Shown here piece by piece: positions 7,658-31,189 of a stretch of 64,000 nt of DNA (position 1 is the stretch's first letter; every line of letters begins with the position of its first letter). The notes beneath the pieces were generated by a model. That model saw nothing but the letters and a program-made list of their open reading frames with translations. It did not search any database and was not told the origin of the DNA. The translations under genes were made by a program, and so were the position numbers. The stretch covers positions 1-64,000 of the forward strand of contig JALXBF010000016.1 in assembly GCA_026991575.1 (NCBI GenBank), read 5' to 3'. The stretch comes from Planctomycetota bacterium (lineage in GTDB: Bacteria > Planctomycetota > Planctomycetia > JALXBF01).

Positions 7658-10600
7658 GCGGGCAACAGCATCGTGCGGCCAACCAGCAAGACCCGTCGAC
7701 CCACGAGGAGCAGGTTGGGCTGTTGTTGGCAGCCTTCCTGGAAGCACGCGAACGCGATCCGGAGCTTAGACCAGAACAGTTCCTGGACACGGTGCCCGAG
7801 AAGCTCAGGGAGGCGGTCCGCGCCGCCATCGAGTCGGTGCTGTGGCTGGAGGCTGTGGAACCGCACGGGCGGCAGCGGCCCGAAGAACCCTCCGCTGGCA
7901 AACAGTTCGGCCATTACCGTTTGATCCAACGGCTGGGAGAGGGCACAGGCGGCACGGTGTACCTGGCGGAGCATACGTTGCTGAAGCGGCGGGTGGCGTT
8001 GAAGCTGCTTGCTGAACCGTGGACCGCAGACCCCGGCCGACGTGAGCGATTCGAGCGTGAAGCACGGGCGATAGCGCGGCTACACCACACGAATATTGCT
8101 CCCCTCTTCGAGTACGGCCGATGCCAGGGGCGGCTGTTCTTTGCGATGCAGTACATCGAGGGCTGGACGCTGGCGGAGTTGATTTGCTACGCCAGGGAGG
8201 GGGATCAATGGAAGGAACTGCCGGAGCCGATCAAGCAACTGGTACGGGAGGCTCGGCGCCGCGGCGGGTTCCGGCCGCAACAGGTGGCGGAATGGGGGGC
8301 TCAGGCGGCAGCTGCCCTGGCGCACGCGCACGGGCAGGGGGTAATCCACCGGGACATTAAGCCCTCCAATCTCGTGCTTGACCGCCAGGGCCGGCTCTGG
8401 GTGGTGGACTTCGGGCTTGCGTTGCTGCCGGACGATGCTGGCCTGACCCTGCCGGGCGTGCCCGTCGGCACGCCGCGGTACATGAGTCCGGAGGTGGCTC
8501 GTGGCGGACCGGCAACGGAACGCAGTGACCTATACTCGCTCGCGGCAGTCCTCTATGAGCTGCTGACGCTCAGGCCGGTTCTCCCCGGTGAGGAAGTGGC
8601 GGAGGTGCTGGAGGCGGCGCGGCAGTTCGAGGGGGTTCGCTTCGAGCGCCGGGAACTATCGCGTATCGGGCGTGATCTGGCTGCCGTGGTGCAGGCTGCA
8701 CTGGAGCCGGATCCGCGCCACCGGCTGGCGACGGCGGAGGTCCTGGCAGAGGAGCTGCGGCGGGTGTTAGCGGGGGAGCCGGTGCGGCTGCGCCGCTGGG
8801 CCACCCTGCGCACCGCGGCTCGTTGGGCTCGGCGTCATGCTGCCGTTACCGCCGTTGCCGGTGTGCTCGGGACCATTGCGATTGGCCTGGCGGTGTGGCG
8901 CCACGTGGACGTGGCGGCTGCACGTCGCCAGGCGGAAACCAACGCTCGCCGCGCCGAGAGCGCGCTCCGTCAGGCTCGCGCCGAACTGGTCCGGTCGCAC
9001 ATCGCCGATGCGCGCGCGTGGGTACGGAGCCGCGTCAACGGTCGACGGGCACACGCGCTGCGCAGCCTCCAGGAAGCTCGACGCTACCTTGATGCCGTCG
9101 ACGGCTCGGTCGCGGCCGACTGGTGGGATGCGTGGCTTGCTGCGCAAGGCTGCCCGGACTTGACTTACCAGCCGCTTGCCCACCGTGCCGTGTCCCATCC
9201 GCTTGAATCCCTCTTGGGTGGTAGCACCCGTGGTGCCCAACCCGAGCCGTGGACCTCGCTGGAAGTGGTTGTGCCGCAGCAGCGCGGGCAGCAACTCGTG
9301 GTTGGCACCACCCGCTCAGGATTGCTGTTCCGGCTGCTTGAGGGCCGGCCTGAGGTCATCGTGGAGCTGCCCGGGGAACAGAGCACGCTGTGCGGCTCAG
9401 CCTACCCGTGGGTTGTCGCTGCGGGAGAAGACGGTGCCTGGGCCGTGGACCTGACGAGCGGAGCTGTCCAGCAGATCTGTGACGGACCAACGCTCGCTGC
9501 CGCCGTGGCGTCCGCGGCGAGTCGGATTGCCGTGGCAACGCGGGGAACGGTCGCCATCTACGAGCTGGCCGGCACCGCCTGGGAGGAGGCTGCCCGGTTG
9601 GCGCTACCTAGCGGACCGGCAGTCGCGCTGGCGTGGGACTGGGCGGGCAAGCTGCTGGCAGTGGTGACGGATCGGCCACCGGAGCTGACGGTCTACACGG
9701 TGCCCGCGGGCCGGGCGATCTGGCGGATTGACCTGGCTGAGGGGGAGCGTTCTGCCGTGCTGCGCTCGGCCACGTTGGCGTTTCTGCCCACGGGTCAGGT
9801 GGCGCTGGGCTTGGCAGATGGCAGCGTGCGCGTCGTGTCGCCGCAGACCGGTCTGGGGGATCTGCTGCGAAGTCACCGCTCCGCGGTAACCGCCTGCGTT
9901 GCTGTGGACGATGGTGTGCGGCTGATGACGGCCGATCGAGCCGAAGTGACTCTCTGGAACCTGGTCCGAGGGGAGCCGTTGTGTCCGTCGTTGAGGCTGC
10001 CAACGGCCGTTGAGCGCGTCACTGCGTTGTCGGCCGGTGAGTGGCTGGTCGGCTCGGCCGAAGGGTGGTACCGCGTGCGGTTTCGACCGAGCGGCCGCCT
10101 GTACCGCGCGTTGCCCGTGCTGGCCCGGCGTGTCGTAGCCGGCACGTTTTGTGCTAGTTCGATCGTGCTGGCCGGTGCGGACGGTGAGCTGTTGGTCGTC
10201 GGTCCGCGCGGCGAACAGCGGCGGTACCGGTTACCCGGGTCGCCCCAGCGGCTGCAGCGGCAGTCGGCGGACCTGGTGGTCTGCTATCTTGCCGATGGCC
10301 GGCGTGTGGTATTGGACGTAGCCGGCGGGCGACTGAAGGTGCCGCGTGTCGACACCAGCGCGGTGGGGGGGGCCGCCTCTGGCGGAACCGCCCCGAGTGC
10401 TGCTCAGCAGGCCGTGACGCGGTGGCCTGGCCCGGTGGCCGGCGATGGTGCCGATCGTGACACCGGCGAGCTGTTGTCGGTCGTGCGGTGGCATGGCGAG
10501 AGCGACGTGCTGACGGTTGCTTTGGTGGCTGGGCGTGATGGGGGCCGAGACGTGCTGCTGTGGCGGAGCGATCGGCAGGGCAAGTTGGTTCGGTTGCTTG

Positions 10601-10758
10601 GCCGGCTCAGGCCGGTGTTGGTGGGACGGGTGGAGGCGATAGCGGTGAGCGAGGCAGGGGACCTGTTGGTTATGGGAGGGCCTCGCGAACCGGCGCGGCG
10701 CGGACCTGGGCTGGCCGAGTGCTGGCGGCTTACGGAGCTGTTGCCCGCGGGCCACTAG
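7654..10758 (+). CDS. Transmembrane Ser/Thr protein kinase with a C-terminal beta-propeller-like sensor region
   Basis: 1034 residues. Cytoplasmic kinase domain about 87-385: Gly loop RLGEGTGGTVYLAE, Lys117 in VALKLL, HRDIKPSN at 232-239, DFG at 252-254, GTPRYMSPE at 272-280. All key catalytic residues are present. One transmembrane helix lies near 398-417 (VTAVAGVLGTIAIGLAVW). A coiled stretch follows and then about 500 residues of WD40/PQQ-like repeats without clean consensus, a likely extracytoplasmic sensor. The start overlaps the ECF sigma stop by 4 bases, so the pair should be made together and the sigma factor is the obvious candidate target. Confidence 0.92.
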   Translation: MSGQQHRAANQQDPSTHEEQVGLLLAAFLEARERDPELRPEQFLDTVPEKLREAVRAAIESVLWLEAVEPHGRQRPEEPSAGKQFGHYRLIQRLGEGTGGTVYLAEHTLLKRRVALKLLAEPWTADPGRRERFEREARAIARLHHTNIAPLFEYGRCQGRLFFAMQYIEGWTLAELICYAREGDQWKELPEPIKQLVREARRRGGFRPQQVAEWGAQAAAALAHAHGQGVIHRDIKPSNLVLDRQGRLWVVDFGLALLPDDAGLTLPGVPVGTPRYMSPEVARGGPATERSDLYSLAAVLYELLTLRPVLPGEEVAEVLEAARQFEGVRFERRELSRIGRDLAAVVQAALEPDPRHRLATAEVLAEELRRVLAGEPVRLRRWATLRTAARWARRHAAVTAVAGVLGTIAIGLAVWRHVDVAAARRQAETNARRAESALRQARAELVRSHIADARAWVRSRVNGRRAHALRSLQEARRYLDAVDGSVAADWWDAWLAAQGCPDLTYQPLAHRAVSHPLESLLGGSTRGAQPEPWTSLEVVVPQQRGQQLVVGTTRSGLLFRLLEGRPEVIVELPGEQSTLCGSAYPWVVAAGEDGAWAVDLTSGAVQQICDGPTLAAAVASAASRIAVATRGTVAIYELAGTAWEEAARLALPSGPAVALAWDWAGKLLAVVTDRPPELTVYTVPAGRAIWRIDLAEGERSAVLRSATLAFLPTGQVALGLADGSVRVVSPQTGLGDLLRSHRSAVTACVAVDDGVRLMTADRAEVTLWNLVRGEPLCPSLRLPTAVERVTALSAGEWLVGSAEGWYRVRFRPSGRLYRALPVLARRVVAGTFCASSIVLAGADGELLVVGPRGEQRRYRLPGSPQRLQRQSADLVVCYLADGRRVVLDVAGGRLKVPRVDTSAVGGAASGGTAPSAAQQAVTRWPGPVAGDGADRDTGELLSVVRWHGESDVLTVALVAGRDGGRDVLLWRSDRQGKLVRLLGRLRPVLVGRVEAIAVSEAGDLLVMGGPREPARRGPGLAECWRLTELLPAGH

Positions 10759-10828: not shown

Positions 10829-12499
10829 TTACTGGACCGGTTCCAGACCGTGCTCGGCCGCGTACGTCTGCAGCTTCCGAAGCGCCCGGCTCTCCAGTTG
10901 ACGCACACGCTCCTTGGTCACGCCCAGCTCGCGGCCAACCTGCTCCAGCGTCCGTGGCGTGCCTTCCTGGCCGAGCCCGAACCGGGCGATGATCACACGC
11001 TGCTCCCGTTCGTCCAGCCGGTCGAGGATCTCGTACAGCAGCTTCTTGATCTCGCGCATCGAGGTTTCTTCGTGGTACGGATCCGCGCGTCGGTCGGCGG
11101 CCGTCTCGAAGATCTCGTCGTAACCGGTGACGAACCGGTCCTGGCGCACAGCCTCCTCGGGGATGGATCGGGCATAGTTCTTCATGATGGCCCAGGAGGC
11201 ATAGGTGCTGAACTTGAACCCGCGGCTGTAGTCGAACTTCTCCACGGCGCGGATCAGCGACATATTCCCGTCGCTGACCAGCTCGAACAGGTTCGTCTGC
11301 GGGCTCACCCGCCGCTTGGCGATGGAGACCACCAGTCGCAGGTTGGACCGGATGATGCGGTTCTTGACGTCCAGTGCCTCCTGCAGCAGCCGCTCCATCT
11401 CGTCCATATCGCTGACGCGCGGCCGCTGGATGTCGAGCCGCTCCTGGATCTTCTTGGCCTTGTGCTTCAAATAGTTCATCTTGCGGAACAGGTACACCTC
11501 CTGTTCCTTGGTCAGCAGCGGGACCTCGTAGAGGGAGGTCAGGTACGGCGGCAAGCCCTTCGGAGGCCGGGTCCGCTTAGGCTGCTTCTCCGGCACCGGT
11601 TCCGGGCCGAGGATCTTCTTGTCGGCCCCCGGCTTGTCGAACTCCTCGTTGTACATGTACTCGATGGTCATTTCCTTGAGCCGCTTGCACCGCACCTGCT
11701 GGATGGCCCGCTGGATGGTGGACGGGGCCTTCTGGTAGCGGCGCGCCAGAGCGGCGATGGGGGCGCCACGCCGATAGGCCTGGTAGATCTGTTCCTTATC
11801 CTCCCATGTCAGCCGCGCACTTCGCTCGCTGAAGACTGCCCGGTCGGGGTGCTGCTGGTCGTACCGCTCCAGTTCCCGACGGACGGTCTCCACCGCGCGG
11901 CCCATCTTCTCGGCCACGGCCCGCACTACCTCGGTGGGCTTGCTTCCCTTGCGCTGCTTCTTGATCTCCTTGGCCAGTCGAACCATCGCCTCTCTCTCTT
12001 GGTCGCTGAGGTTTGAGAACTCCCGAGCCCGTGCTACGACGTCTGCGTGATTCTTGAGGAACCGTTGGACGGTTCGTTCCGGGAACGCCAGCACCCTGCG
12101 GCCCTCAGCCGTGTAGTACCGCCGTCCCACCAGGCCTCGGGCTCGCCACCGTCTTAGAGTGCGCGTGCTAACACCCAGTTCCCTGGACAGTTCCGAGACC
12201 CGGTACAGCTTCTCGCCGGCATCGGCCAGGCTCAGCTTCAGCGTGCCGCTGAGCTCTTCGATCAATCGGGCCAGGTCATCGGCTAAGGCGATCCCTGGCA
12301 GCGGCACGCCCCGATCCTCACTGGGATAGAGCCCGGTCAGCCGGAAACTGACATACGCATAGGGGTATACGGTGTTCGGATCCAGTTCTGCCTGAAAGCG
12401 CTCCGCACGCTCCATGTACTGCAGGCGCAGCCTGCGAGGAGCAATGCGCAGCTGATCGGCAAGGCGGCGAATCGGGGCAAGCTGGTACTTAAGCGGCAT
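10829..12499 (-). CDS. Large sigma-70 factor with an N-terminal multi-HTH extension
   Basis: 556 residues. The C-terminal half is a sigma-70 core: region 1.2 about 316-345 (YLTSLYEVPLLTKEQEVYLF), region 2 about 377-447 (LRLVVSIAKRR, FDYSRGFKFSTYASWAI), region 4 about 484-546 (LEQVGRELGVTKERVRQLE). Region 3 is nearly absent: only about 37 residues separate regions 2 and 4. The first 300 residues carry up to four helix-turn-helix segments: about 6-28, a MerR-like one at 98-146 (VSELSRELGVSTRTLRRWRA), 185-214, and a resolvase-like one at 232-270. It is not a standard RpoD. It may be a planctomycete group-2 sigma that reads extra DNA sites. It is monocistronic, divergent from a DUF1559 gene. Confidence 0.88.
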   Translation of the reverse strand: MPLKYQLAPIRRLADQLRIAPRRLRLQYMERAERFQAELDPNTVYPYAYVSFRLTGLYPSEDRGVPLPGIALADDLARLIEELSGTLKLSLADAGEKLYRVSELSRELGVSTRTLRRWRARGLVGRRYYTAEGRRVLAFPERTVQRFLKNHADVVARAREFSNLSDQEREAMVRLAKEIKKQRKGSKPTEVVRAVAEKMGRAVETVRRELERYDQQHPDRAVFSERSARLTWEDKEQIYQAYRRGAPIAALARRYQKAPSTIQRAIQQVRCKRLKEMTIEYMYNEEFDKPGADKKILGPEPVPEKQPKRTRPPKGLPPYLTSLYEVPLLTKEQEVYLFRKMNYLKHKAKKIQERLDIQRPRVSDMDEMERLLQEALDVKNRIIRSNLRLVVSIAKRRVSPQTNLFELVSDGNMSLIRAVEKFDYSRGFKFSTYASWAIMKNYARSIPEEAVRQDRFVTGYDEIFETAADRRADPYHEETSMREIKKLLYEILDRLDEREQRVIIARFGLGQEGTPRTLEQVGRELGVTKERVRQLESRALRKLQTYAAEHGLEPVQ

Positions 12500-13331
12500 G
12501 GCAAAGTCCCCAGCGGTTAGCGCCGCGGCAGCAGCCGCGGCTTTTCAACACCCCGGCGCCGCTTCCCCGTTGGCCGGTTCAGGTGCACATCGCGTGCCAC
12601 AATCCTCCCCGGCAACGGATTATGCGGCTCAGTGCAGAGGAAGCGGCAAACCAGGGCCTTTTCGGCCGTTCTCGGCGTCACCGCCGGGTTATGCTTCAGT
12701 AAGACGCCACCGGTCCTGCCGCGTGACACACTGCCAGCTTGGCACGTTCGCACGGCCAAGCGCGCCTCAGTCGCGTCACAACTGTCTCTGTGCGCGACGA
12801 GGACCGTGCAGCGCGGAAGGAACCTGGCCCGACTTCGCTCCCGTGCCCCGACCGCTACCGGGGACTCGCCCCACAGGAACATTCGTTCGGCGGGAAATCC
12901 TCCGTACGCGGATATCCTACCCGATGAACGATCGCTTGCCAAGCAGCTATCGCGCAGCCTGCGGCTATTCCTTCCACAGTACGCACACGTACGTCAGCGG
13001 TTCGCTATTTTTACCACGACCACCAGCGGATGCAACCCCAATTCTTGCCAGCGACCCCTCAAAGCCCGCAGCCGCGGCAAGCGATACCAGGCGAACCCGG
13101 CACCGGCCCCGATCCGAGGCCGATTCCGCATCGCTTGACCCGGTTGACGATACGTTCCAAGCGCTGGTACACTGGTGGCGCAACGGCAGCAGGGTCTAGC
13201 GACCGCGCTGTCCGGGCCTGCCGGGCGAGTGGGCCAGCTGAGCAGGCCGCCAGAATTGAGAACATACGAGAGTGTTATGGGTGGAGGTTATCCACGGTCC
13301 GTATCGGAGCTCGGTTTGGGAGGTGCGTCTC
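12500..13331. other. Intergenic stretch, no convincing gene
   Basis: An 830-bp spacer between the divergent sigma factor and DUF1559 genes. Frames here are open but give Ala/Pro/Ser/Arg-rich translations without recognisable protein character. A GCCGCGGC hairpin (about 12521-12541, loop AGCA) lies just upstream of the sigma gene. A candidate promoter for the DUF1559 gene lies at 13144-13173. Confidence 0.5.
13144..13173 (+). promoter_or_regulatory. Candidate sigma-70 promoter for the DUF1559 gene
   Basis: TTGACG and TACACT separated by 18 bp, about 160 bp upstream of the start at 13332. Assigned from sequence match only. Confidence 0.35.
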
Positions 13332-17109: not shown

Positions 17110-17182
17110 GCTAGCGTAGCTCAATCGGTAGAGCGCCGGTTTTGTAAACCGGGGGTTGTGGGTTCGAGTCCCACCGCTAGCT
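17110..17182 (+). tRNA. tRNA-Thr (anticodon TGT)
   Basis: 73-base cloverleaf. Acceptor GCTAGCG/CGCTAGC, anticodon stem CCGGT/ACCGG with loop TTTGTAA, T arm GTGGG-TTCGAGT-CCCAC. CCA is not encoded. First of four tRNAs in the order known from the E. coli tufB operon. Confidence 0.96.
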
Positions 17183-17191
17183 TCGTCGTGC

Positions 17192-17274
17192 GGGCCGGTG
17201 GCCGAGCGGCCAAAGGCGCCAGACTGTAAATCTGGTGGCGGACGCCTACGCAGGTTCGAATCCTGCCCGGCCCA
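17192..17274 (+). tRNA. tRNA-Tyr (anticodon GTA)
   Basis: 83-base tRNA with the long variable arm of a class II tRNA. Acceptor GGGCCGG/CCGGCCC, anticodon stem CCAGA/TCTGG with loop CTGTAAA. CCA is not encoded. Confidence 0.96.
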
Positions 17275-17303
17275 CTTGCCTACTCGGGCATCTGCACCGC
17301 TAG

Positions 17304-17374
17304 GCGGGCGTAGCTCAATGGTAGAGCACCGGCCTTCCAAGCCGGGAATGCGGGTTCGATTCCCGTCGCCCGCT
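17304..17374 (+). tRNA. tRNA-Gly (anticodon TCC)
   Basis: Acceptor GCGGGCG/CGCCCGC, anticodon stem CCGGC/GCCGG with loop CTTCCAA. The genomic sequence continues CCA at 17375-17377, so here the 3' CCA appears to be encoded. Confidence 0.96.
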
Positions 17375-17392
17375 CCATTGCCTCTGGCACGC

Positions 17393-17423
17393 CGCCGTCT
17401 AGAATGACGGCGCCTGGTTTTTT
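17393..17423 (+). terminator. Terminator-like hairpin inside the tRNA cluster
   Basis: CGCCGTC/GACGGCG stem with a 6-base loop, then CCTGG and six T. It lies between tRNA-Gly and the second tRNA-Thr and could attenuate transcription into tuf or serve as a processing site. Confidence 0.4.
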
Positions 17424-17452
17424 GGCTGGCCGGTTCGCTGGTCGGCCAGGGG

Positions 17453-17525
<73 letters not shown>

Positions 17526-17650
17526 CTGCCTGTGCTGCGTAGCTCTGTTGCCGGGCAATTCCGTGTCAGATGTGGGTGTGGTGTGGACGGTAGGCGATGG
17601 TGTTTGCGGTCTTGATAGTTTTGTGACGTTACGACGGGAGAGGAGCGGAG

Positions 17651-18868
<1,218 letters not shown>

Positions 18869-18889
18869 TCGCGACCCGGCGGAGGAGCG

Positions 18890-19057
18890 ATGCGCAAGTG
18901 GGTCTGGCTCGAGTGCACGGAGTGTAAAGAGCTGAACTACCGCACGTCGGTCCCGGTCAAACCGGGTGGCGGCGGCCAGCAGTCTCGGCTCGAACTGCGC
19001 AAGTACTGTCCCAGGCAGCGCAAGCACACCGTGCATCGGGAGTCTCGCAAGAAGTAG
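18890..19057 (+). CDS. rpmG: 50S ribosomal protein bL33
   Basis: 55 residues (MRKWVWLECTECKELNY ... KYCPRQRKHT). The first Cys pair of the zinc ribbon (CTEC) is intact, but the second has only one Cys (CPRQ), so zinc binding may be lost or altered. GGCGGAGGAG lies just before the ATG. Position between tuf and tRNA-Trp/secE is conserved in bacteria. Confidence 0.95.
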   Translation: MRKWVWLECTECKELNYRTSVPVKPGGGGQQSRLELRKYCPRQRKHTVHRESRKK

Positions 19058-19171
19058 CCGTCGGGCTTGTTCCGAAAGCGTTCGACCGATACGATGAGCG
19101 GGGACCGGCGCGGTCCCTGCTCGTCGGCTGTCGGAACCGCCGCATGCCGGTTCGCGCAACGGCGGTTGTGC

Positions 19172-19244
19172 AGGGGCGTAGCTCAATTGGAAGAGCACCG
19201 GTTTCCAAAACCGGCGGTTGGGGGTTCGACTCCCTCCGCCCCTG
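19172..19244 (+). tRNA. tRNA-Trp (anticodon CCA)
   Basis: Acceptor AGGGGCG/CGCCCCT, anticodon stem CCGGT/ACCGG with loop TTCCAAA, discriminator G. CCA is not encoded. The rpmG-tRNA-Trp-secE order is common. Confidence 0.96.
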
Positions 19245-19385
19245 CCTTCTTGCACCGTGCGACGCACTCGCCTCTTGCCGCCGCCTGCCTCTTACGCAAG
19301 GGTGCCGCTTGGATGGGTGGCCTCGGCGCCGGCGTGCCGGCAAGTGTATCGAGCGGCAAGTCTTTCTGACGCTGCGGGGATTGAC

Positions 19386-19907
19386 ATGGCCACGAAAGCT
19401 GCGGCAGGCGCCTGGCGGAAAGGATCGCTGCTGGAGGCGCTGCTTTCGGTCGAGATCTACAAGCGGACCCAGGGGCTGACGATCCGGGTGCTGACGTTCC
19501 TGGGCATCATGATCTTTGTGGTCTGGGGTGCTCAGGAACTGTACGCCCGGCTCATCACCGCGCCGTATGCCGTCCGCGTTGGTGTGCCCATGGCGCTGGT
19601 GGTGGCCAGTGGCTGGATCGCGTTCCGGCTCGTGAACTACCCGCCCTTTGCCGACTTCCTGATCGACACCGAATGGGAGATGCGCAAGGTCACCTGGCCG
19701 ACCTGGTCGCAGCTGAAGCGGGCCACGGCCGTGGTCATTACCGTCACGCTGTTGATGGCCGGCTTCCTGTACCTGGTTGACCTGGTCTGGATGGGCATCC
19801 TGCGCTTGATCGGGGTGCTGTGGGTTCCCACGCCCGAGGAAGCTGAGCAGGCCGCGGTGCGGCTGCTCGATTGGCTCTATTCCGTCGCCCAGCTCTGGCT
19901 GGGCTGA
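19386..19907 (+). CDS. secE: Preprotein translocase subunit SecE, extended form
   Basis: 173 residues from the ATG at 19386. The C-terminal half is the conserved SecE core: amphipathic helix with EMRKVTWPTWSQLKRAT, then a transmembrane helix (VVITVTLLMAGFLYLVDLVW). Two more hydrophobic segments lie upstream (VLTFLGIMIFVVWGAQELYA and VGVPMALVVASGWIAFRLV), so it has three membrane segments like the E. coli protein rather than the one of most bacteria. It clamps SecY in the inner membrane. Confidence 0.93.
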   Translation: MATKAAAGAWRKGSLLEALLSVEIYKRTQGLTIRVLTFLGIMIFVVWGAQELYARLITAPYAVRVGVPMALVVASGWIAFRLVNYPPFADFLIDTEWEMRKVTWPTWSQLKRATAVVITVTLLMAGFLYLVDLVWMGILRLIGVLWVPTPEEAEQAAVRLLDWLYSVAQLWLG

Positions 19908-19937
19908 ACGGCGTAACCTGTTGTGCCGGAGCGTGTG

Positions 19938-20579
19938 ATGACTGAGCGGCAGGCTGACGAGCAGAAGCAGGCCGAACGGAGCGAGGCCGTGGCCGCAGGC
20001 ACTGAACAGCAGGGGGGCGGTTCCGGCCAGAAGCCCGAGATGGGCTGGTATGTGGTGAAGGTGGCCGCGTCCAAGCGTGAGGAGCAGGTGCGCGAAAGCA
20101 TCCTGCGTCGGGCGCGGGTCAAGGGACTTGCCGACAAGTTCGGCGAGATTATTATTCCGACGGAAAAGGTGGCCGAGGTCAAGGGGGGGAAGCGACGCGT
20201 CACCGAGCAGAAACTCTACTCCGGCTACATGATCGTCCAGATGGTCCTGGACGACGATACCTGGTACCTCGTGCGCGAAACGCCGGGGGTCAGTGATTTC
20301 GTGGGGGCTCAGCCCGGCAAAAAACCTCTGCCGATGACCGACGCCGAGGTCGAGAAGATGCTGGGGCAGGTGCATGAGGTCACGGCCGAGGAACCCCGTC
20401 TGAAGGTCGACTTCTGCAAGGGCGACCTGGTCAAGATTAAGTCCGGGCCATTCGAGAACGTCCAGGGCGTGGTCGACGAGGTGCTGCCGGACAAGGGGCT
20501 GGTGCGTGTGATGGTGGAAATCTTCGGGCGGCAAACACCAGTGGAAGTGGAGCACTGGTTGCTGGAACGCGTCACCTAG
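19938..20579 (+). CDS. nusG: Transcription termination/antitermination factor NusG
   Basis: 213 residues from ATG 19938 (CCGGAGCG just upstream); an in-frame GTG at 19923 is the alternative. A charged, Gln-rich N-terminal tail of about 35 residues precedes the NGN domain (GWYVVKVAASKREEQVRESI, KLYSGYMIVQM). The C-terminal KOW domain reads FCKGDLVKIKSGPFENVQGV. It binds RNA polymerase and couples it to Rho or the ribosome. Confidence 0.96.
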   Translation: MTERQADEQKQAERSEAVAAGTEQQGGGSGQKPEMGWYVVKVAASKREEQVRESILRRARVKGLADKFGEIIIPTEKVAEVKGGKRRVTEQKLYSGYMIVQMVLDDDTWYLVRETPGVSDFVGAQPGKKPLPMTDAEVEKMLGQVHEVTAEEPRLKVDFCKGDLVKIKSGPFENVQGVVDEVLPDKGLVRVMVEIFGRQTPVEVEHWLLERVT

Positions 20580-20673
20580 GCGGTGTGCCCCTTTTCGCCA
20601 GTCCCCGGCCGCGCAGAAACCTGCCTGAGCGCGACGAATCCCCATTGCTCGACTGCGGAGATCCAGGAACACG

Positions 20674-21102
20674 ATGGCTCGTAAACAGGTTGTCGCAAAA
20701 GTTAAGCTGCAGTGTCCCGGCGGTCAGGCAACGGCCGCACCGCCCATCGGGCCCGCGCTCGGCCAGCACGGCGTGAACATCGGACAATTTGTCCAGCAGT
20801 TCAACGCTCGCACCAAGGACCTCAACGGGATGATCGTCCCCGTTGAGATCACGATCTACTCGGACCGTAGCTTCGAGTTCATCATCAAGAGTCCGCCGGC
20901 GTCGGTCTTGCTGAAGATGGCTGCGGGCTTGGCAAAGGGGTCCGGGACGCCGGGACGGGAGACCGTCGGTAAGGTCACGCGCGAGGACGTGCGCAAGATT
21001 GCTCAAGAGAAACAGAAAGACCTGAACGCCCGTGACCTCGAGCACGCGGTGCGAATGATCGAAGGCACTGCGCGGAGCATGGGCATTGAGGTGGTGGACT
21101 GA
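20674..21102 (+). CDS. rplK: 50S ribosomal protein uL11
   Basis: 142 residues, standard length. N-terminal domain [20 protein letters not shown] with the usual Pro-rich GTPase-centre loop; C-terminal RNA-binding domain [13 protein letters not shown] and ARSMGIEV. Part of the GTPase-associated centre with bL12 and uL10. Standard place after nusG. Confidence 0.98.
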
Positions 21103-21165
21103 GACAGCAGCCATTCCCCGCTAGACCGCGGCTACAGCCAGCTGCGGGAGGGAGGTCAGAACGCG

Positions 21166-21849
21166 ATGCCGCGACACTCGAGGCGCTATCTGGAGCTGAA
21201 GAAAAAAGTCGAAGGGCTACCGCCCTTGCCGGTCGGCGAGGCGGTGCGTAAGCTGAAGGAGTTCGCCAACACCCGGTTCGATCAGACCGTGGAGCTTGCG
21301 GTACGGCTAGGCATCGACCCACGCCAGGCGGACCAGCGTGTGCGCGGCTCGGTCGTCTTGCCGCACGGTACCGGGCGCGCGGTCCGGGTGGCGGTGTTTG
21401 CTCAGGGTGAAAAGGCGCGTGAGGCGAAGGAGGCCGGCGCGGACATCGTCGGCGCCGAGGACCTGGTGGCACAGGTCCAAAAAGGCCAGATCGACTTCGA
21501 TATCTGCATTGCCACACCCGATATGATGAAGTTGGTTCGCCCTCTTGGGCGAATCCTCGGCCCCCGCGGCCTGATGCCCTCACCACGCAACGGTACCGTC
21601 ACCAACGACGTCGCCGACACGGTACGGCAATTCAAGCTGGGCCGGGTGGAGTTCCGTGCCGATCAGGGCGGCAACGTCCACCTGCCGGTAGGCAAACTCA
21701 GCATGCCGGAAGAGGCGCTGGTCGAGAACATCGAGGCTGCGCTGCATGCCATCCGAGCGCTGCGGCCTGCTGCCGTCCGTGGCCAGTACATCCGCAACGT
21801 GGCGGTGTCTGCGACGATGAGTCCCAGCGTCAAGCTGGCGGTGGCATGA
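21166..21849 (+). CDS. rplA: 50S ribosomal protein uL1
   Basis: 227 residues. L1 stalk protein, with [19 protein letters not shown] and the N-terminal repeat [30 protein letters not shown] lies upstream of the ATG. In many bacteria uL1 represses its own rplK-rplA message; no leader was modelled here. Confidence 0.98.
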
Positions 21850-21894
21850 GCGTTCTCCCCGGGGCTTGCCGGCGTAGCTGGAGGCTGACCAACG

Positions 21895-22410
21895 ATGAGC
21901 CGTTACGTGAAGCGATTGATGATGGACGAACTCCGACGCACGTTGGAGGGCGTCGACGATTTCCTGTTCGTGGATCTGGAGCGGCTGAATGCCAATGAGG
22001 CCACCGAGCTGCGGCTGGCGCTGCGGGAACGGGCGATTCGAGTCCGCGTCGTTAAGAACACGCTCGCACGCATCGTGCTCCGGGAGCTGGGCATCGAGGG
22101 GGCCGACCCGATCTTGCAAGGCCCTACAGCCATCGCCTGGGGCGGCGACTCCATCGTGGAGCTGGCCCGCGAGATCACCGAATGGACCAAGAAGATCGAC
22201 CGCTTCCGGATCAAGGGAGGCGTACTGGCCAAGAAGGCCATCTCCGAAGCGGATGTGGTTGCGTTGAGCCGGATGCCGACCCGCGAAGAGCTCATCGGGC
22301 GGATCGTCTCCCTTCTGGTCGGTTCCGGCACGCGGGTCGTTGCGCTCCTGCAAGGGGCTGCCGGCCGGGTGGTCGGCCAGATCAAGAGCAAAGCGGAACA
22401 AGAATCGTAG
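21895..22410 (+). CDS. rplJ: 50S ribosomal protein uL10
   Basis: 171 residues. N-terminal 23S-binding domain contains VVKNTLARIVLRE; the C-terminal helix that recruits bL12 dimers ends QIKSKAEQES. It forms the stalk base. The 45-bp gap from rplA is too short for a long uL10-type leader. Confidence 0.97.
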   Translation: MSRYVKRLMMDELRRTLEGVDDFLFVDLERLNANEATELRLALRERAIRVRVVKNTLARIVLRELGIEGADPILQGPTAIAWGGDSIVELAREITEWTKKIDRFRIKGGVLAKKAISEADVVALSRMPTREELIGRIVSLLVGSGTRVVALLQGAAGRVVGQIKSKAEQES

Positions 22411-22482
22411 TGTCCTGTGTGGGCGATCGTATTGCGGTGCTTTCCGGCGGATCGGGCTGCGTAAGAGAGGAGAGGTACACTC

Positions 22483-22896
22483 ATGGCCAATGGCGAATCG
22501 CGACAGTGGAGCGATAAGATCAAGAGCCTGGGCGACGAGCTGGTCAAGCTAACGGTGCTTGAGGCTAAGGAACTGGGCGATTATCTTGAGGAAGAGTACG
22601 GGCTGAAGGCTGCTGCCGGTGCGGTCGCTGTGGCAGCCGTGCCCGGCGCTGCGGCACCCGGTGCTGAGGCTGCGGAAGAGGAGAAGACCGAGTTCGACGT
22701 CATTCTGGAGAGCTTCGGCGACAGCAAGATCAACGTCATCAAGGTGGTCCGCGCCATCACCGGCCTGGGGCTGAAAGAGGCCAAGGCCCTGGTCGAGAGT
22801 GCCCCGAAACCGGTCAAAGAGGGCGTCAGCAAGGAAGAGGCCGAAGAGATCAAGAAGAAGCTCGAAGAGGCCGGTGCCACTGTTTCGCTCAAGTAA
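22483..22896 (+). CDS. rplL: 50S ribosomal protein bL12 (L7/L12)
   Basis: 137 residues: N-terminal dimerisation domain, Ala/Gly/Pro hinge ([18 protein letters not shown]) and a factor-binding C-terminal domain ([19 protein letters not shown]). It recruits EF-Tu and EF-G. AAGAGAGGAGAGG lies upstream. Confidence 0.98.
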
Positions 22897-22934
22897 CCCG
22901 ACCCACGCCACTCGATCAGGACCGCAATCCCGCA

Positions 22935-22963
22935 GCCGAGCGCGCAACCATTGCCCGCTCGGC
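22935..22963 (+). terminator. Hairpin in the rplL-rpoB gap, candidate attenuator
   Basis: 8-bp perfect stem GCCGAGCG/CGCTCGGC with a 13-base loop and no T run. It sits where many bacteria attenuate between stalk proteins and RNA polymerase. Confidence 0.4.
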
Positions 22964-23078
22964 TACGGGTCTTGCTGCGCGCAGCCGTATCCACGACCGG
23001 GCCGCTTGCTGAACCGGCTGGTCGTCTGAGCCGATGGTGCCCGGACGACAAGAGGACTGTAGCGAGGTAGGACGAAAC

Positions 23079-26000
23079 ATGTCAACAGTCTCCGAGGAAC
23101 GCGCGATCATCTTCCGCGAACGGCGGAACCTGGGGCGTTCCAAGCTCGACCTGGAAATCCCCAACCTGACCGAGATCCAGACCCGCGCGTACGAGGCGTT
23201 TCTGCAACCGAACACCCCGCCCAAGGAACGCAAGAACCAGGGGCTCGAGGCCGTCCTGCGCGAAACCTTCCCGATCGAAAGCTACGATGGCCAGATGCGC
23301 CTGGAATACCTGTACTACGAACTGGATGAGCCCCGCTTCGACCCGGACGAATGCCGCCAGCTCGGCCTCACCTACGGCCGCCCCTTGCGCGTCTGGCTCC
23401 GGTTGGTCAAAGGCAACGAGTCGATCGAGGAGGTGGTCTTCTTCGGCGACGTGCCCATCATGCTGGGCGGCGGCGAGTTCATCATCAACGGCGCCGAACG
23501 GGTCGTGGTCAGCCAGCTGCACCGTAGCCCCGGGGTGGACTTCGTCGAGGAGACCGAATCCGGCGGGCGCAAGACGTTTGTGTGCCGGATCCTGCCGGAA
23601 CGCGGCAGCTGGGTCGAGATCCATATCAGTCGCAACGAAACGCTGCATGTGCGCATCGACCAGGTCAGCCGGATCCCGGCAACCATGCTCGTGCGCGCGA
23701 TGAGCGAGCAGTATGCCACGGACGAACAGTTGTTGAGAGCCTTCTACAAGACCAAGAAGGTACGCCTCAGCAGCCGCACGCTGCCGCAGATCATCCACGC
23801 ATTCGCCTGCGGGCCGATCGTCGATCCGGACACGGGAGAGATCCTGGTCGAATCGTGCCAGATGATCACCGAGGAGATGGCCGAAGAGATTCTCGACCGC
23901 GGCCTGCGCGAGGTTGAGGTCGTCCTGCCCGGACAGGACCCGCTGGTGCTGAACTCCATCCAGGAGGATCAGGCCAAGGGGCATGAGGATGCTCTGGTGA
24001 TGATCTATCAGAAACTCCGTCCCGGCAACCCGGCCGACCTGGGCCGCGCACGCGAACTGTTCCGGGAGAAGTTCTTCGATCCGACTCGCTACCGACTTGG
24101 CCGCGTGGGCCGTTTCCGCATGAACCGTAAGTTCGGCGTCGACGTCGACGAATCGATCCAGACGCTCCGCGCCGAAGACCTCATCGAGGCGATCCGCTAC
24201 CTGATGCGGCTACGCCAGCCCAACAGCGGCGCCACCACCGACGATATCGACAACCTCGGCAACCGCCGCGTCCGTACGGTCGATGAGCTTGCCTGCGAGG
24301 AGCTTCGTAAAGGGTTCCACAAGCTGAAGCGGACCGTGCAGGAGCGCATGAGCCTGCATGGTGAGCGCGAGGACCTGGGCGTCCGCAGTCTGGTCAACAC
24401 CAAGGCCGTCACGGCGGCGATGGAGTATTTCTTTGGCCGTAGCGAACTGTCCCAGGTCGTTGACCAGACGAACCCGCTGTCGCAGCTCACCCACGAGCGC
24501 CGCCTCTCGGCCCTCGGACCCGGTGGCCTGAACCGCAAGCGCGCCGGATTCGAGGTGCGCGACGTGCACTACTCGCACTACGGCCGGATCTGCCCGATCG
24601 AGACACCCGAAGGAACCAATATCGGCCTGATCTCCAGCCTGGCAGTCTACGCCGGTATCGACGAGTATGGCTTCCTGATCACTCCGTACCGTGAGGTCCG
24701 TAAGGGCAAAATCACCAACAATCTGGTCTGGCTCCGCGCCGATCAGGAATTCGACAAGCGGATTGCCCCGGCCGATATCCCCATCGAAGACAATCGGATC
24801 GCTGCTGAGAAGGTCGTCGTACGCTACCGCGGCGACTACGAAACCGTGCCGGCCGACCAGGTGGACCTGATCGACGTATCCACCAAACAAATGGTGGGCG
24901 TCTCGGCAAGTCTGATCCCGTTCCTGGAGCACGACGACGCAAACCGCGCCCTGATGGGCTCGAACATGCAACGCCAGGCCGTGCCTCTGTTGATCACCGA
25001 GCCCCCCCTGGTGGCCACTGGCATGGAAGAGGCGGTCGCCAAGAACAGCAGCCTGGTCGTGCGTGCCGTCGAGGACGGTACCGTCACGTACGTCGATGCC
25101 CAGCGGATTGTCATCGACGATCGACAGTACTACCTGAAGAAGTTCACCGGCTTGTCCGACCGCACCTGCCTGAACCAGAAGCCAATCGTGAAGGTGGGCG
25201 ACAAGGTGAAGGCTGGTCAGATCATCGCCGATGGCGCGGCGACCTGCCAGGGACAGCTTGCCCTGGGACGTAACGTGCTGGCGGCGTTCATGTCCTGGGA
25301 AGGGTACAACTTCGAGGACGCGATCGTGATCTCCGAACGTCTCGTGCGCGACGACGTGTACACGTCGATTCACATCCAGGGCTTCGAGGCGGAGATCCGC
25401 GAGACGAAGCAGGGACGCGAGGAGTTTACCCGGGACATCCCGAACGTCGCTGAAAAGATCCTGCGAAACCTGGACGAAAACGGTATCGTCCGAATCGGCA
25501 CCTACGTCCGTCCCGGCGACATCCTCGTGGGCAAAATCGCCCCCAAGCCACGCCAGGAGATGACGCCCGAGGAGAAACTGTTGCACGCCATCTTCGGCCG
25601 TGCCGGTGAGGACGTCAAGAACGTCAGCCTCGAGGTCCCCAGCGGCGTGGAAGGTGTCGTGATCGCGACCCAGCGGTTCGCGCGGAAGCAGAGCCTGAGC
25701 GAAGAGGAGCGCAAGCGACGCGACGAGCAGTTGAAGGCGATCGAGAAGGAGTACAACGAGCGAATCGCCCAGACCTTCAAGGAGATGATTGCCGCCCTGG
25801 AAGAGCTGCTCGGCAGAGAGCTGACCGATGAGAGCGGCAAGCGGCTCCGCAAGCTGGACCAGCGACGCATCCGCGAGCTGATGGACAAATTCGACTTGAA
25901 GAAGTTCCGCATTAGCCCGCAGAAGAAGGGCGAGGCCCAGCAGCTCTACCGCCGCTACTGGCAACGCATCGACACGCTGCGCATGGAACAGCGGCGCAAG

Positions 26001-26777
26001 GTGAATGAGCTGCGGATTGGCGATGAGCTACCCATCGGCGTGCTCCAGCAGGTGAAGGTGTACCTGGCGATCAAACGGAAGATCTCGGTGGGCGACAAGA
26101 TGGCGGGCCGTCACGGCAACAAGGGCGTCATCGCCAAGATCCTGCCCATCGAGGACATGCCCTATCTGGAAGACGGTACCCCTGTGGACATCATCCTGAA
26201 TCCGCTCGGCGTCCCCAGCCGTATGAACGTGGGCCAGATTCTGGAGACCCACCTCGGCTGGGCGGCCAAGGTGCTCGGCTTCCAGGCCATCTGTCCGGTC
26301 TTCGACGGACCGGACGAGGAGACGATCCGCAGCCTGATGGTGCAGGCAGGTTTGCCGGAGGACGGCAAGGCCGTGCTCTACGACGGTCGCACGGGCGAGC
26401 GGTTTGAGCAGCCGGTCACGGTCGGTTACCTGTACATGATGAAACTCCATCACCTGGTCGACGACAAGATCCACGCGCGTGCCACCGGGCCGTACTCGCT
26501 GATCACCCAGCAGCCGCTCGGCGGCAAGGCTCGCTTCGGAGGCCAGCGGTTCGGCGAGATGGAGGTCTGGGCGCTGGAAGCTTACGGTGCTGCCTACACA
26601 CTGCAGGAACTGCTGACCGTGAAGTCCGACGATGTCGAAGGCCGGACGAAGATCTACGAGTCGATTGTCAAGGGCCAGAACACGCTGGAAGCCGGCATGC
26701 CCGCCAGCTTCGAGGTGCTGATGAACGAGATACGCGGTCTGGCACTGAATATCCGGCTGGAGAAGCGGCGACTGTGA
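23079..26777 (+). CDS. rpoB: RNA polymerase subunit beta
   Basis: 1232 residues from ATG 23079 (GCGAGGTAGGAC upstream); ATG 23034 would add 15 non-conserved residues. Rifampicin-region sequence [20 protein letters not shown] is wild-type-like. Also [10 protein letters not shown]-type motif ([15 protein letters not shown]), the active-site [12 protein letters not shown], and the C-terminal clamp region [18 protein letters not shown]. No unusual truncation. Confidence 0.99.
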
Positions 26778-26782
26778 ACACG

Positions 26783-26812
26783 CACCCCAACGGTCGGTCT
26801 GCTCTTGGGGTG
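26783..26812 (+). terminator. Hairpin between rpoB and rpoC
   Basis: 8-bp stem CACCCCAA/TTGGGGTG with a 14-base loop, no U tract. Likely an RNA-processing or pausing element, since rpoC follows in the same transcript. Confidence 0.35.
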
Positions 26813-26893
26813 AGCTTTCGCCGCTAGGGCCATCGATCCCGGAACCGTAGCCGGTATGGTCGGAACCGGGGTATCAGGAGCGACAACCAGTCA

Positions 26894-29800
26894 GTGGGAG
26901 AACTGGCCGTGAGTATTTCACCGGAAACCAGCTACGAACGGGTCAACGAATATACGGCCGTTCAGATTCGGCTTGCCAGCCCGCAAGACATCCGGTCCTG
27001 GTCATTCGGCGAGGTGAAGAAGCCGGAGACGATCAACTACCGGACGTACCGTCCGGAGAAGGACGGGCTGTTCTGCGAACGGATCTTCGGGCCGGAGCGC
27101 GACTGGGAGTGCAGCTGTGGCAAGTACAAGGGAATGAAGTACAAGGGGATTATTTGCGACCGCTGCGGCGTGAAGGTCACGACCTCGAAGGTGCGCCGCA
27201 AGCGGATGGGCCACATCGAGCTGGCTGCACCGGTCGTGCACATCTGGTTCTTCAAAGTAACCCCCAGCCGCATTGCGCTGTTGCTCGACCTGCGCGCCTC
27301 ACAGCTTGAAGGCGTCATCTACTACCAGGACTACATCGTTATCGATCCGAAACAAACCGACCTGAAGAAGTGCCAGGTCCTCAGCGAGGAGGAATACCGC
27401 GAGGCCATTCGGCAGTGGGGCGTCGGTGCGTTTGAGGCCGACATGGGGGCTGAGGCGATCAAGAAGCTGCTGGCACAGCTTGACCTGGTTGCCCTCTCCA
27501 AGCAACTACGCCAGCAGTTGCAGCAGACCGATTCAAAGCAGCAGCGCAGCGAACTGATCCGGCGGCTCCGCGTGGTCGAAGCGCTGCGCGACAGCGAGAA
27601 TCGGCCCGAGTGGATGGTGTTGGAGTGCATCCCGGTCATCCCGCCCGAGCTCCGTCCTCTGGTGCCGCTCGAAACCGGGAATTTCGCCACCAGCGATCTG
27701 AACGACCTCTACCGCCGCATCATCAACCGCAACAACCGGCTCAAGAAACTGGTCGACCTGAACGCCCCGGAGGTGATCATCCGCAACGAGAAGCGGATGT
27801 TGCAGCAGTCGCTCGATGCGCTCTTCGACAACAACCGCTGCAAGCGGCCCGTAATGGGCTCCTCGAACCGTCCGCTCAAGAGCCTGAGCGACATGATCAA
27901 GGGCAAGCAGGGGCGGTTCCGCGAGAACCTCCTGGGCAAGCGGGTCGATTACTCGGCACGTTCGGTCATCGTCGTTGGCCCAGAGCTGAAACTGCACCAG
28001 TGCGGTCTGCCCAAACGGATCGCCCTAGAGCTGTACTCGCCGTTCATCATCCGGCGGCTCAAAGAGCTCGGGCATGCCGACACGATCAAGGCGGCCAAGC
28101 GAATGGTGGAGCAGAAGCGGGATCCGGTCTGGGACATCCTTGATGAGGTCATCCAGAACCACCCGGTCCTGCTTAACCGCGCCCCCACGCTGCACCGGAT
28201 GGGCATCCAGGCGTTCGAGCCGATCCTGGTGGAAGGCAACGCCATTCAGATCCACCCGCTGGTGTGCAAAGGGTTCAACGCGGACTTCGACGGTGATCAG
28301 ATGGCCGTACACCTGCCGCTATCGGTGGAGGCGGTGGTGGAGGCGGCTACGCTGATGCTGTCGACCCACAACATTTTCTCCCCCGCCCATGGCGGGCCGA
28401 TCATCAGCCCAAGCCAGGACATCGTCATGGGCTGCTACTACGCCTCATGCATGCTGGACGGCCAACCGGGTGAAGGGCGGGTGTTTGCTGACCCAGTCGA
28501 GGCGATCTACGCCTACAACCATGGTCAGATCGGCATGCATGCCAAGATCCAGGTCCGGCTTCCGGCCAACAAGAAGCGGGTTGTGCTGGACGATGGCTCG
28601 GATGACCCGAACTACAAGCCAGGCGGTCGCATCACGACGTGCGTGGGCCGGATCCTGTTTAACGACATCCTGCATCCGGACATGCCGTTCTACAACCAGT
28701 TGCTCAGCTCCAAGCGGTTGAGCCGGATCATCGCCGACTGCTATGAGCTACTGGGCCGGTCCGAGACGATCGATCTGCTCGACCGGATGAAGGACTTCGG
28801 GTTCCGGATGGCCACGCGCAGCGGGCTGAGCTTCGCGACCAGCGACCTGAAGCGTCCGGCTAACAAGGAAAAGGTCATTCGGGACACGGAGAAGCGGGTT
28901 GCCGAGATCAACCGCCAGTATCAGAAAGGACTGATCACGCCGGGCGAGCGGTACAACCAGGTGGTTGACGAATGGATGAAGGCGGTCAACGAGATCAAGG
29001 AACAGCTCATGCGCGACCTGCGCGAGGACCGCCGCGACGGCAAACCGTACATCAACCCGATCTACCTTATGGCTCAGTCCGGCGCACGTGGGAATGAGGA
29101 CCAGGTGCGGCAGCTGGCCGGTATCCGTGGTCTGATGGCCAAGCCGTCCGGGCGGATCATCGAGACCCCGATCAAAGCCAGCTTCCGCGAAGGGCTGAGC
29201 GTGCTGGAGTACTTCAGCTCCACGCACGGGGCCCGCAAAGGGCTGGCCGACACGGCGCTGAAGACGGCTGACTCCGGCTACCTGACACGCAAGCTGGCCG
29301 ACGTCGCCCAGAACGTGGTCGTCACCATGTATGACTGCGGTACGACCAACGGCATCACCAAGTCGGCGGTGCGTCAAGGGAACAAGGAGGTCGTGAGCCT
29401 TGCGCAGGCAATCTACGGCCGCGTGGCCCGGAACACGATCGTGCATCACGTATACGACGAGGTGGTGGTGCGTGAGAATGAGTTGATCACGCGCGAGATT
29501 GCCAAGAAGATCGAGGAGATGGGGATTTCGAAGATCCGCGTGCGCAGCCCCATGACCTGCGAAGCGGAACTCGGTGTCTGTGCCCTCTGCTACGGCATGG
29601 ACCTGGCCACCGGCGAGCTGGTCGAAGAGGGGATGGCTGTTGGCATCATCGCGGCTCAGTCGATCGGCGAGCCCGGGACGCAGCTGACCATGCGGACGTT
29701 CCACATCGGTGGTGTCGCGCAGCGGCGGGTTGAGGAGAGCCTGGTTCGCGCGCAGCGCAAAGGAATCGTCCACTTCGTTGACTGCGACGTCGTCATCAAC

Positions 29801-31189
29801 GAGAAAGGCCGCCGGGTTATCGTCGGACGGAACGCCAAGGTGCAGATCCTTGACGATAAGGGACGCGATCTGGAAACCCACGCCGTGCCCAACGGTGCCG
29901 AGGCCCAGGTGGAGGAGGGGCAGAAAGTCAACCCTGGCACGGTGCTGTGCGTCTGGGAGCCCCACGTGTCACGTGTGGTCTCCGACGTTGAAGGCGTCGT
30001 CCGCTTCGAGGACCTGGTCGAAGGCGAGACGCTGATCATCGAGCGCGATCCCACCACCGGTGGCAAGCGGCTGATCGTCGCCGAACATCGCGGCGATAAG
30101 CAGCCGGCGATCGTCATTGTCGACCCCGAGACCGGACGGGTCGCCGAGGTGTACCACCTGCGTGAGAAGGCCACCGTCGAGGTTGAGGAAGGTCAGAAGG
30201 TGGTCAAAGGGACGGTCCTGGCGAAAATCCCCGAAGAGATCACCGGTACTCAGGACATCACCGGTGGTCTGCCGCGTGTGAGTGAGTTGTTCGATGCACG
30301 GCGTCCCAAGGAGCCTGCGGTGCTGGCCGAAATCGACGGAGTTGTGGAGGTGGAAGGTCGCAAGGTGCGCAACAAGCGGCTGATCCGGATTCGCAACGAA
30401 AAGACCGGCATCGAGAAGGAACACTACGTGCCGCCCAAACAGCAGTTGCGGGTCAAGACCGGCGATCGAGTCCGTGCCGGCGACCAGCTCTGTGAGGGAC
30501 CGCTTGATCCGAACGACATCTTGAGGATCTCTGGCGAGGAGCGGCTGCAGCAGTACCTTTTGGAGGAGATCCAGAAGGTCTACCGCAACCAGGGTGTGGA
30601 CATCAACGATAAGCACGTGGAGATCATCATCGCGCAGATGTTGCGTAAGGTCGAGGTGACCGACCCGGGCGATACGGATCTGTTGCCCGAGACGGAGATC
30701 GACCGGTTCCGCTTCCAGCAAATCAATCGGCAGTTGGCCAAGTCGGCCAAGATCACCGATCCGGGCGACACCCAGTTCAAAGAAGGGGAGATTGTTCCGA
30801 TGGAGGTGCTGGAGGCGGAGAACGAGCGGGTGGAGAAGGCTGGCGGTAACCCGGCACGCTGGGTGAAGCCTCGGCCTGCCACGGCACGCACGCTTCTGCT
30901 GGGCATCACCAAGGCGGCCGTGCGTTCGGAAAGCTTCATCTCGGCGGCCAGCTTCCAGGAAACCACCCGCGTGCTGACCGAAGCGGCGATTTCCGGCAAG
31001 CGCGACACGTTGGTCGGGCTCAAGGAGAACGTCATCCTGGGCCGCCTGATCCCGGCAGGCACGGGCTTCAAGCGGTATGTGGAATCGGAGGTGCGTATCA
31101 ACCCGAAGATTCTCGAACAGATGGATGCTCAGCGCATGGCCAGCCTGACGACCCTGACCGGCCAGGAACAGGGCGAAGCGCAGCAGTAA
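26894..31189 (+). CDS. rpoC: RNA polymerase subunit beta-prime
   Basis: 1431 residues. N-terminal zinc finger ([20 protein letters not shown]), catalytic [12 protein letters not shown] with the three Mg-binding Asp, bridge helix/trigger loop region ([20 protein letters not shown]), second zinc site ([13 protein letters not shown]). GTG at 26894 has CAGGAG 12 bases upstream; the in-frame GTG at 26909 (preceded by GGGAGAA) may be the true start. Confidence 0.98.

Follow-up and report, generated by a model that had tools for sequence, protein, structure and literature searches.

The protein described here, HTH-sigma, probably belongs to a planctomycete subfamily of alternative sigma factors in which a single polypeptide would serve as both transcription factor and sigma factor. 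It is encoded in a 64,000-nucleotide stretch of DNA from a Planctomycetota bacterium (hereafter, the window), on exactly the strand and coordinates first assigned to it, and has three predicted N-terminal helix-turn-helix (HTH) units fused to a sigma-70 core. Our search of the literature on sigma factors with an N-terminal HTH array returned no description of such an architecture.

10829..12499, minus strand: HTH-sigma gene, 556 amino acids (aa); open reading frame from ATG to stop, with 80 homologous loci and presence in 146 of 148 genomes of the class

A scan of contigs identified 147 that encode relatives of HTH-sigma, nearly all from Planctomycetota according to their titles, and the best 80 of the 147 were analyzed as loci. 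These comprise 63 long forms, which are like the window protein, and 17 short forms, which are devoid of most of the N-terminal domain (N-domain, see below); identity between the window protein and the homologues at the 80 loci is 42–51%. An alignment profile (E <= 1e-40) matched 146 of the 148 genomes of the same class and 135 of the 136 good ones. In approximately 140 of the 148, as read by eye from the table, the match begins no later than profile position 25; the others are contig-edge pieces, shorter forms, or genomes outside the matches listed. The gene was found in 19 of 19 relatives and is the sole member of its subfamily in the window genome. In a sample of the phylum, the profile matched 52 of 294 genomes, of which 21 belong to this class and 31 to others. 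The 80 loci and the presence in 146 of 148 class genomes indicate that HTH-sigma is encoded by a real gene that is old and almost universal in the class, and both the array and the core are conserved across the 81 sequences (window included).

The core comprises the following parts, with residue numbers in brackets:

11465..11563, minus strand: sigma region 1.2 (313–345); PDB matches to SigA/HrdB from residues 310–319 on, conservation
11150..11365, minus strand: sigma region 2 (379–450); Pfam, PDB matches, conservation, structural alignment
11168..11194, minus strand: region 2.4 signature WAIMKNYAR (436–444); all nine positions invariant in 81 sequences
11075..11149, minus strand: 3.2-like linker (451–475), which replaces domain sigma-3; alignment to the RpoD of the same genome, model confidence low at 447–472
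10859..11044, minus strand: sigma region 4 (486–547) with an RpoD-like recognition helix; Pfam, alignment to the same RpoD

That the sigma-70 core is clear, as the preliminary description had it, is borne out by Pfam matches well above the cut-offs: Sigma70_r2 at residues 383–438 (53.0 bits, cut-off 24) and Sigma70_r4 at 492–544 (60.3 bits, cut-off 24.1). Among the 81 family members (E <= 0.001), Sigma70_r2 was detected in 81, Sigma70_r4 in 80 (the exception, L071, ends at a contig edge), and HTH_23 in 80. Sigma70_r3 was absent among the 25 most frequent of the 33 Pfam families in these members, and none was listed for the window protein. The core matched SigA/RpoD/HrdB structures in the PDB with a best E of 1.8e-35, and conservation is high over residues 386–436. 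Superposing the predicted model on RpoD/SigA structures gave a Z of about 14–15 (VIA), with an rmsd of about 18–19 A overall, because the domains are placed freely in the model, and of 2.6–3.1 A for residues 314–450 alone. Alignment with the genome's own RpoD showed that regions 3.0–3.1, about 60 aa, are cleanly gone. The earlier impression of almost no region 3 therefore holds for these regions but not for the 3.2-like stretch, which is retained and joins regions 2 and 4. Region 4.2 is RpoD-like and nearly identical to that of the same RpoD (VTKERVRQLE versus VTRERVRQIE). Region 2.4 reads WAIMKNYAR in HTH-sigma versus WWIRQAITR in RpoD, a change that we take to be the loss of W434, Q437, and T440 in E. 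coli numbering. In E. coli these residues recognize the -10 element at its upstream edge, and the -10 specificity of HTH-sigma is therefore probably different from that of RpoD.

The window genome contains Sigma70_r2 at 19 places. One of them is the standard RpoD that the preliminary description had asked about (L001, canonical by eye, a 566-aa frame with WWIRQAITR and domain sigma-3), and two further long sigma factors, L002 and L003, also have domain sigma-3. HTH-sigma belongs to the sigma-70 superfamily, since Sigma70_r2 and Sigma70_r4 both exceed their cut-offs, but it forms a separate subfamily, and on the features tested it falls outside both the RpoD and the ECF groups. Its score against the RpoD equivalog PRK05658.1 (NCBIfam) is 147.7 bits for a cut-off of 555, it has no domain sigma-3, and the genome encodes a canonical RpoD besides it. 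As in group 1/2 sigma-70 factors (RpoD/SigA/HrdB), regions 1.2, 2, and 4 align; unlike these factors, HTH-sigma has no region 1.1, no sigma-3, a changed region 2.4, and an N-terminal HTH array. ECF (group 4) sigma factors are defined by having regions 2 and 4 only, without region 1.2. HTH-sigma shares with them a core without domain sigma-3, but its residues 313–345 align with SigA/HrdB and are conserved; it differs from them also in its 3.2-like linker, its RpoD-type regions 2 and 4, and an extra part that consists of HTH units at the N-terminus. Passages of two papers (PMC8999054, PMC3426412) describe some ECF factors with fused regulatory domains. In the excerpted text of an essential-gene paper, only “the housekeeping sigma factor” is named (PMC10632474).

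The N-terminal part was divided as follows:

12221..12499, minus strand: N-domain (1–93), helices and a small sheet, separate from the HTH units; predicted model, conservation
12044..12211, minus strand: HTH1 (97–152), winged HTH of the MerR/BldC/excisionase type; MerR_1 and HTH_23 (Pfam), VIA
11849..12013, minus strand: HTH2 (163–217), HTH of the transposase/CRP type; VIA, invariant R201, E204, and R207
11672..11815, minus strand: HTH3 (229–276), three-helix HTH resembling resolvases and sigma-4; HTH_38, VIA

HTH1 is thus followed in the chain by HTH2, HTH3, and then the sigma core. An AlphaFold2 model of residues 1–290, built from 64 long-form sequences (window included), shows three HTH-type units and the N-domain with a mean pLDDT of 90.1. 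The N-terminus is therefore predicted to form separate HTH units rather than one non-DNA-binding domain, the outcome that would have contradicted the preliminary description. Also as described there, region 1.1 is absent and its place is taken by N-terminal HTH stretches, within 290 residues that carry the HTH units, and MerR-like and resolvase-like stretches are among them: MerR_1 matches residues 99–136 (30.4 bits, cut-off 21.6), in keeping with a MerR-type winged HTH, and HTH_38 matches 229–266 (41.4 bits, cut-off 27), with fold matches that agree; HTH_23 scores 44.5 bits in the window protein (cut-off 24.6). In VIA comparisons, HTH1 matched 7lwr (Z 7.1, rmsd 2.7 over 53 residues), the MerR-family structure 5d90 (Z 5.9, rmsd 2.6 over 57), and BldC 6ama (Z 5.8, rmsd 2.9 over 55), its relatives in the fold search being of the MerR, BldC, terminase, and excisionase types. 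HTH2 matched TnpE 2rn7 (Z 7.9, rmsd 2.0 over 55), with the CRP type among its matches. HTH3 matched sigma-28 1sc5 (Z 6.6, rmsd 1.9 over 48) and Tn3 resolvase 5cy1 (Z 5.9, rmsd 2.5 over 45), with sigma-28 region 4, DeoR, and resolvase types among its matches. All these matches have Z < 8, yet HTH1 and HTH3 also exceed Pfam cut-offs. Foldseek with the model of the N-terminus returned no match at E <= 0.001. Of the up to four N-terminal HTHs originally proposed, the array itself stands, with three units predicted and residues 1–93 forming a separate small domain. A fourth unit there was rejected, since sequence and fold searches gave no HTH match in this stretch (an absence that is no proof) and none of the 25 Pfam matches listed falls within residues 1–89. 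MerR proteins carry a dimerization helix and an effector domain after the HTH. MerR/BldC/excisionase winged-HTH proteins resemble HTH1 in profile and fold; unlike them, HTH-sigma has only one such unit, no recognized effector part, and a fused sigma core. The N-terminus is strongly basic (pI 10.1) and conserved across the class, and the predicted recognition helices of the array carry invariant basic residues.

Homologues outside the class bear on the function of the array. By match range, the 31 genomes of other classes comprise 15 with full-length matches, 3 at contig edges, 7 with the array but no good core, 4 with the core only, and 2 with the core plus, as read in L177, the N-domain. Counted at positions that are invariant in the class, the 7 homologues without a good core keep 10–14 of 14 array residues and 1–4 of 17 core residues, compared with 11–13 of 14 and 12–13 of 17 in three intact out-of-class members; the homologues were added at fixed alignment length, and single positions are possibly misplaced. 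In these 7 proteins, Pfam detected no Sigma70_r2, and a C-terminal region 4 in L183 only. A core-only sigma paralogue is also present in 6 of the 7 genomes. Five of the homologues (L181, L182, L184, L186, and L187) are array-only proteins with decayed cores from other classes, and 4 of these 5 genomes have the core-only paralogue. Since the array is kept while the sigma core has decayed, it seems to serve a function independent of the core. The simplest such function for a persisting array would be DNA binding, and judging from these sequences the array likely reads DNA. The preliminary description had proposed a sigma factor that reads extra DNA sites of its own: the HTH units, the high pI, the conservation, and the persistence of the array alone speak for it, and from them we infer, rather than observe, that the array binds DNA.

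The same homologues weigh on two other explanations of the array. The HTH units could act within the protein or on RNA polymerase, as an autoinhibitory or regulatory N-terminus that masks the core until a signal arrives. The N-terminus does occupy the place of region 1.1, the N-domain has no fold match, and the pTM of the HTH-sigma model is 0.50, which leaves the arrangement of the domains open; however, decayed cores leave little to inhibit, yet the array is kept, and the invariant basic residues of the predicted recognition helices also argue against such a role, which we therefore regard as unlikely. Alternatively, HTH-sigma could be an ordinary alternative sigma whose N-terminal HTHs are a relic or a generic decoration. 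Paralogues within the class that have lost HTH1 and HTH2 and kept the core (L173, L174, and L188–L190) indicate that a core can dispense with these units, but the array is retained in nearly all genomes of the class and in those with a decayed core, and we give this explanation very little credence.

Upstream of the gene lies a candidate for its own promoter:

12980..13005, minus strand: weak candidate ECF-type promoter GCGAACC-N15-CGTA; homologous element in relatives

The candidate is weak because the window genome has 24 such loose matches. In relatives, GAAC-N16/17-CGTATA is found upstream of 17 of 17 short forms. For the long forms, 62 of 63 were counted (L057, with a short upstream stretch, was excluded): GAACTTT-N10-14-[CT]GTC[CT] occurs upstream of 22 of the 62. 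The reverse strand gave no match, 0.2% of sequence windows elsewhere contain the pattern, and 40 of the 62 lack this two-part pattern as written. GAACTTT alone is present in 31 of the 62 upstream stretches, yet also in 4.7% of windows elsewhere, and the two-part patterns therefore serve as the evidence. Among 20 further loci, the element was present in all 16 that were read; L105, L108, L112, and L113 were excluded, the reading being keyed to frames that contain WAIMKNYAR verbatim. A strict pattern gave 10 sites in 15 genomes, 6 of them directly upstream of an HTH-sigma gene. Of the other four, by our reading, one precedes a prepilin-like frame, one a pilM-like frame, and one either precedes an RpoD-like frame or lies inside it; the last has no frame longer than 90 aa starting within 500 bases. 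We take the GAACTTT...CGTCTA form to be an ECF-type promoter. Because the RpoD-like region 4.2 of HTH-sigma misfits a GAAC -35 element, an ECF sigma is the more likely reader of this promoter. Two side observations concern the same stretches. In most short forms (L063–L088) a conserved ACGTCC-like stretch follows a few bases past GAAC-N16/17-CGTATA, and in L025, L038, L047, and L065 a third conserved block, approximately CGTAGTA/CGTACTA, lies just past CGTCTA, near the likely start site.

In one family of relatives (f3), the -35 element forms part of a palindrome, GTTCGCATGCGAAC. The sequence GWTYGYATGCGAACTT has 7 sites in 18 f3 genomes, 7 of 7 upstream of the HTH-sigma gene. Class-wide, 16 of the 148 genomes contain the 14-base form GTTYGCATGCGAAC, at 19 distinct sites in total; the HTH-sigma gene accounts for 6 of these, and for 6 of the 7 within f3. 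The 13 sites away from it are about as many as expected by chance, according to a rough estimate. The palindrome is thus a candidate site that stands, in this family, almost only upstream of the HTH-sigma gene.

In the window, the gene is located about 4.6 kb from a translation cluster and points away from it (protein gene names were assigned by eye from the sequence and are presumptive):

17110..31189, plus strand: tRNA-Thr-Tyr-Gly-Thr, tuf, tRNA-Trp, secE, nusG, rplK, rplA, rplJ, rplL, rpoB, rpoC

Downstream sequence of 2900 bases or more was present at 47 long-form loci; at 15 of these, HTH-sigma stands directly ahead of this tRNA-tuf-rpoBC cluster in the same direction, followed by tRNA-Thr-Tyr-Gly-Thr-tuf, and infC lies upstream on the other strand in 16 of the 17 short forms (the seventeenth has only 862 bases there). 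A TTGC-N18-TATANT element is conserved before the tRNA-Thr-tuf cluster in most of 16 loci among L010–L049 (for example L016, L035, and L045), and this pattern has 17 matches in the 773,610 bases of the 80 loci versus 0–3 at other spacers. The -35 of this tRNA-Thr promoter is TTGC, not TTGAC. Such an arrangement would suit a growth-related sigma dedicated to translation genes and serving the adjoining tRNA-tuf-secE-nusG-rpl-rpoBC promoters. Also in favor of this role is RB12251 of R. baltica, a possible orthologue of HTH-sigma with 567 aa; one paper terms it a “specialized sigma factor” and lists it among genes repressed under heat, cold, and salt (PMC2754498). Several points make this role improbable. 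Gene order may be merely inherited rather than functional, and the short forms may all belong to a single clade, in which case their infC adjacencies are not independent. Over 10 genomes, TTGC-N17-CTATANT gave 35 sites versus 28 at the wrong spacing. Of the 35, 30 precede what we take to be tRNA genes and trigger-factor-, mqnA-, sdh-, and nuo-like frames, among others, as expected of a housekeeping promoter, and the remaining five have no frame. A dedicated translation promoter served by HTH-sigma was rejected on these site counts and mixed genes, and the element was read as a housekeeping promoter. Clustering of all flanking frames revealed, besides the tuf and infC clusters, no partner gene in most loci, nor was an anti-sigma gene noticed among these frames; the HTH-sigma gene stands alone. 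On the other side of the gene, an ECF-type sigma frame (7004–7657, plus strand) shares four bases with a serine/threonine kinase frame of 1034 aa (7654–10758, plus strand), and this pair (7004–10758) is convergent with the HTH-sigma gene. There are also two prepilin-like frames on the plus strand, 13272–14414, which adjoins the HTH-sigma gene, and 39283–40347, both with N-terminal segments that we assume to be of the DUF1559 kind.

Altogether, the reading of HTH-sigma as a transcription factor and a sigma factor combined in a single polypeptide suggests the following model. The chain runs from the N-domain through three HTH units, sigma 1.2, sigma 2, and the 3.2-like linker to sigma 4, with sigma-3 deleted. 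In the putative holoenzyme, region 2 and the linker would most likely bind core RNA polymerase, the RpoD-like region 4 would contact the -35 element, and the altered region 2.4 would read a -10 element other than TATAAT. The HTH array, tethered by a linker (residues 276–312), would add sequence-specific contacts to nearby DNA, in lieu of the contacts provided to RpoD by sigma-3 at extended -10 promoters. The f3 palindrome over the -35 may be an operator bound by HTH-sigma itself, which would then regulate its own gene. More tentatively, it is conceivable that HTH-sigma represents a fusion of several HTH units and a sigma factor as deep as the phylum, which would join operator and promoter selection in one chain with self-control through the -35 palindrome. 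In sister lineages decay would have split it into an array-only regulator beside a core-only paralogue, and the two halves may work there as separate proteins.

The palindrome GTTCGCATGCGAAC provides a concrete first candidate site, and the homologues with decayed cores are a natural test of which half of the protein matters. Upstream operators are normally read by separate activators rather than by sigma factors. With a DNA-binding array of its own, a near-universal sigma factor of the class would solve the problem of promoter choice differently, in a phylum where little is known of gene regulation.
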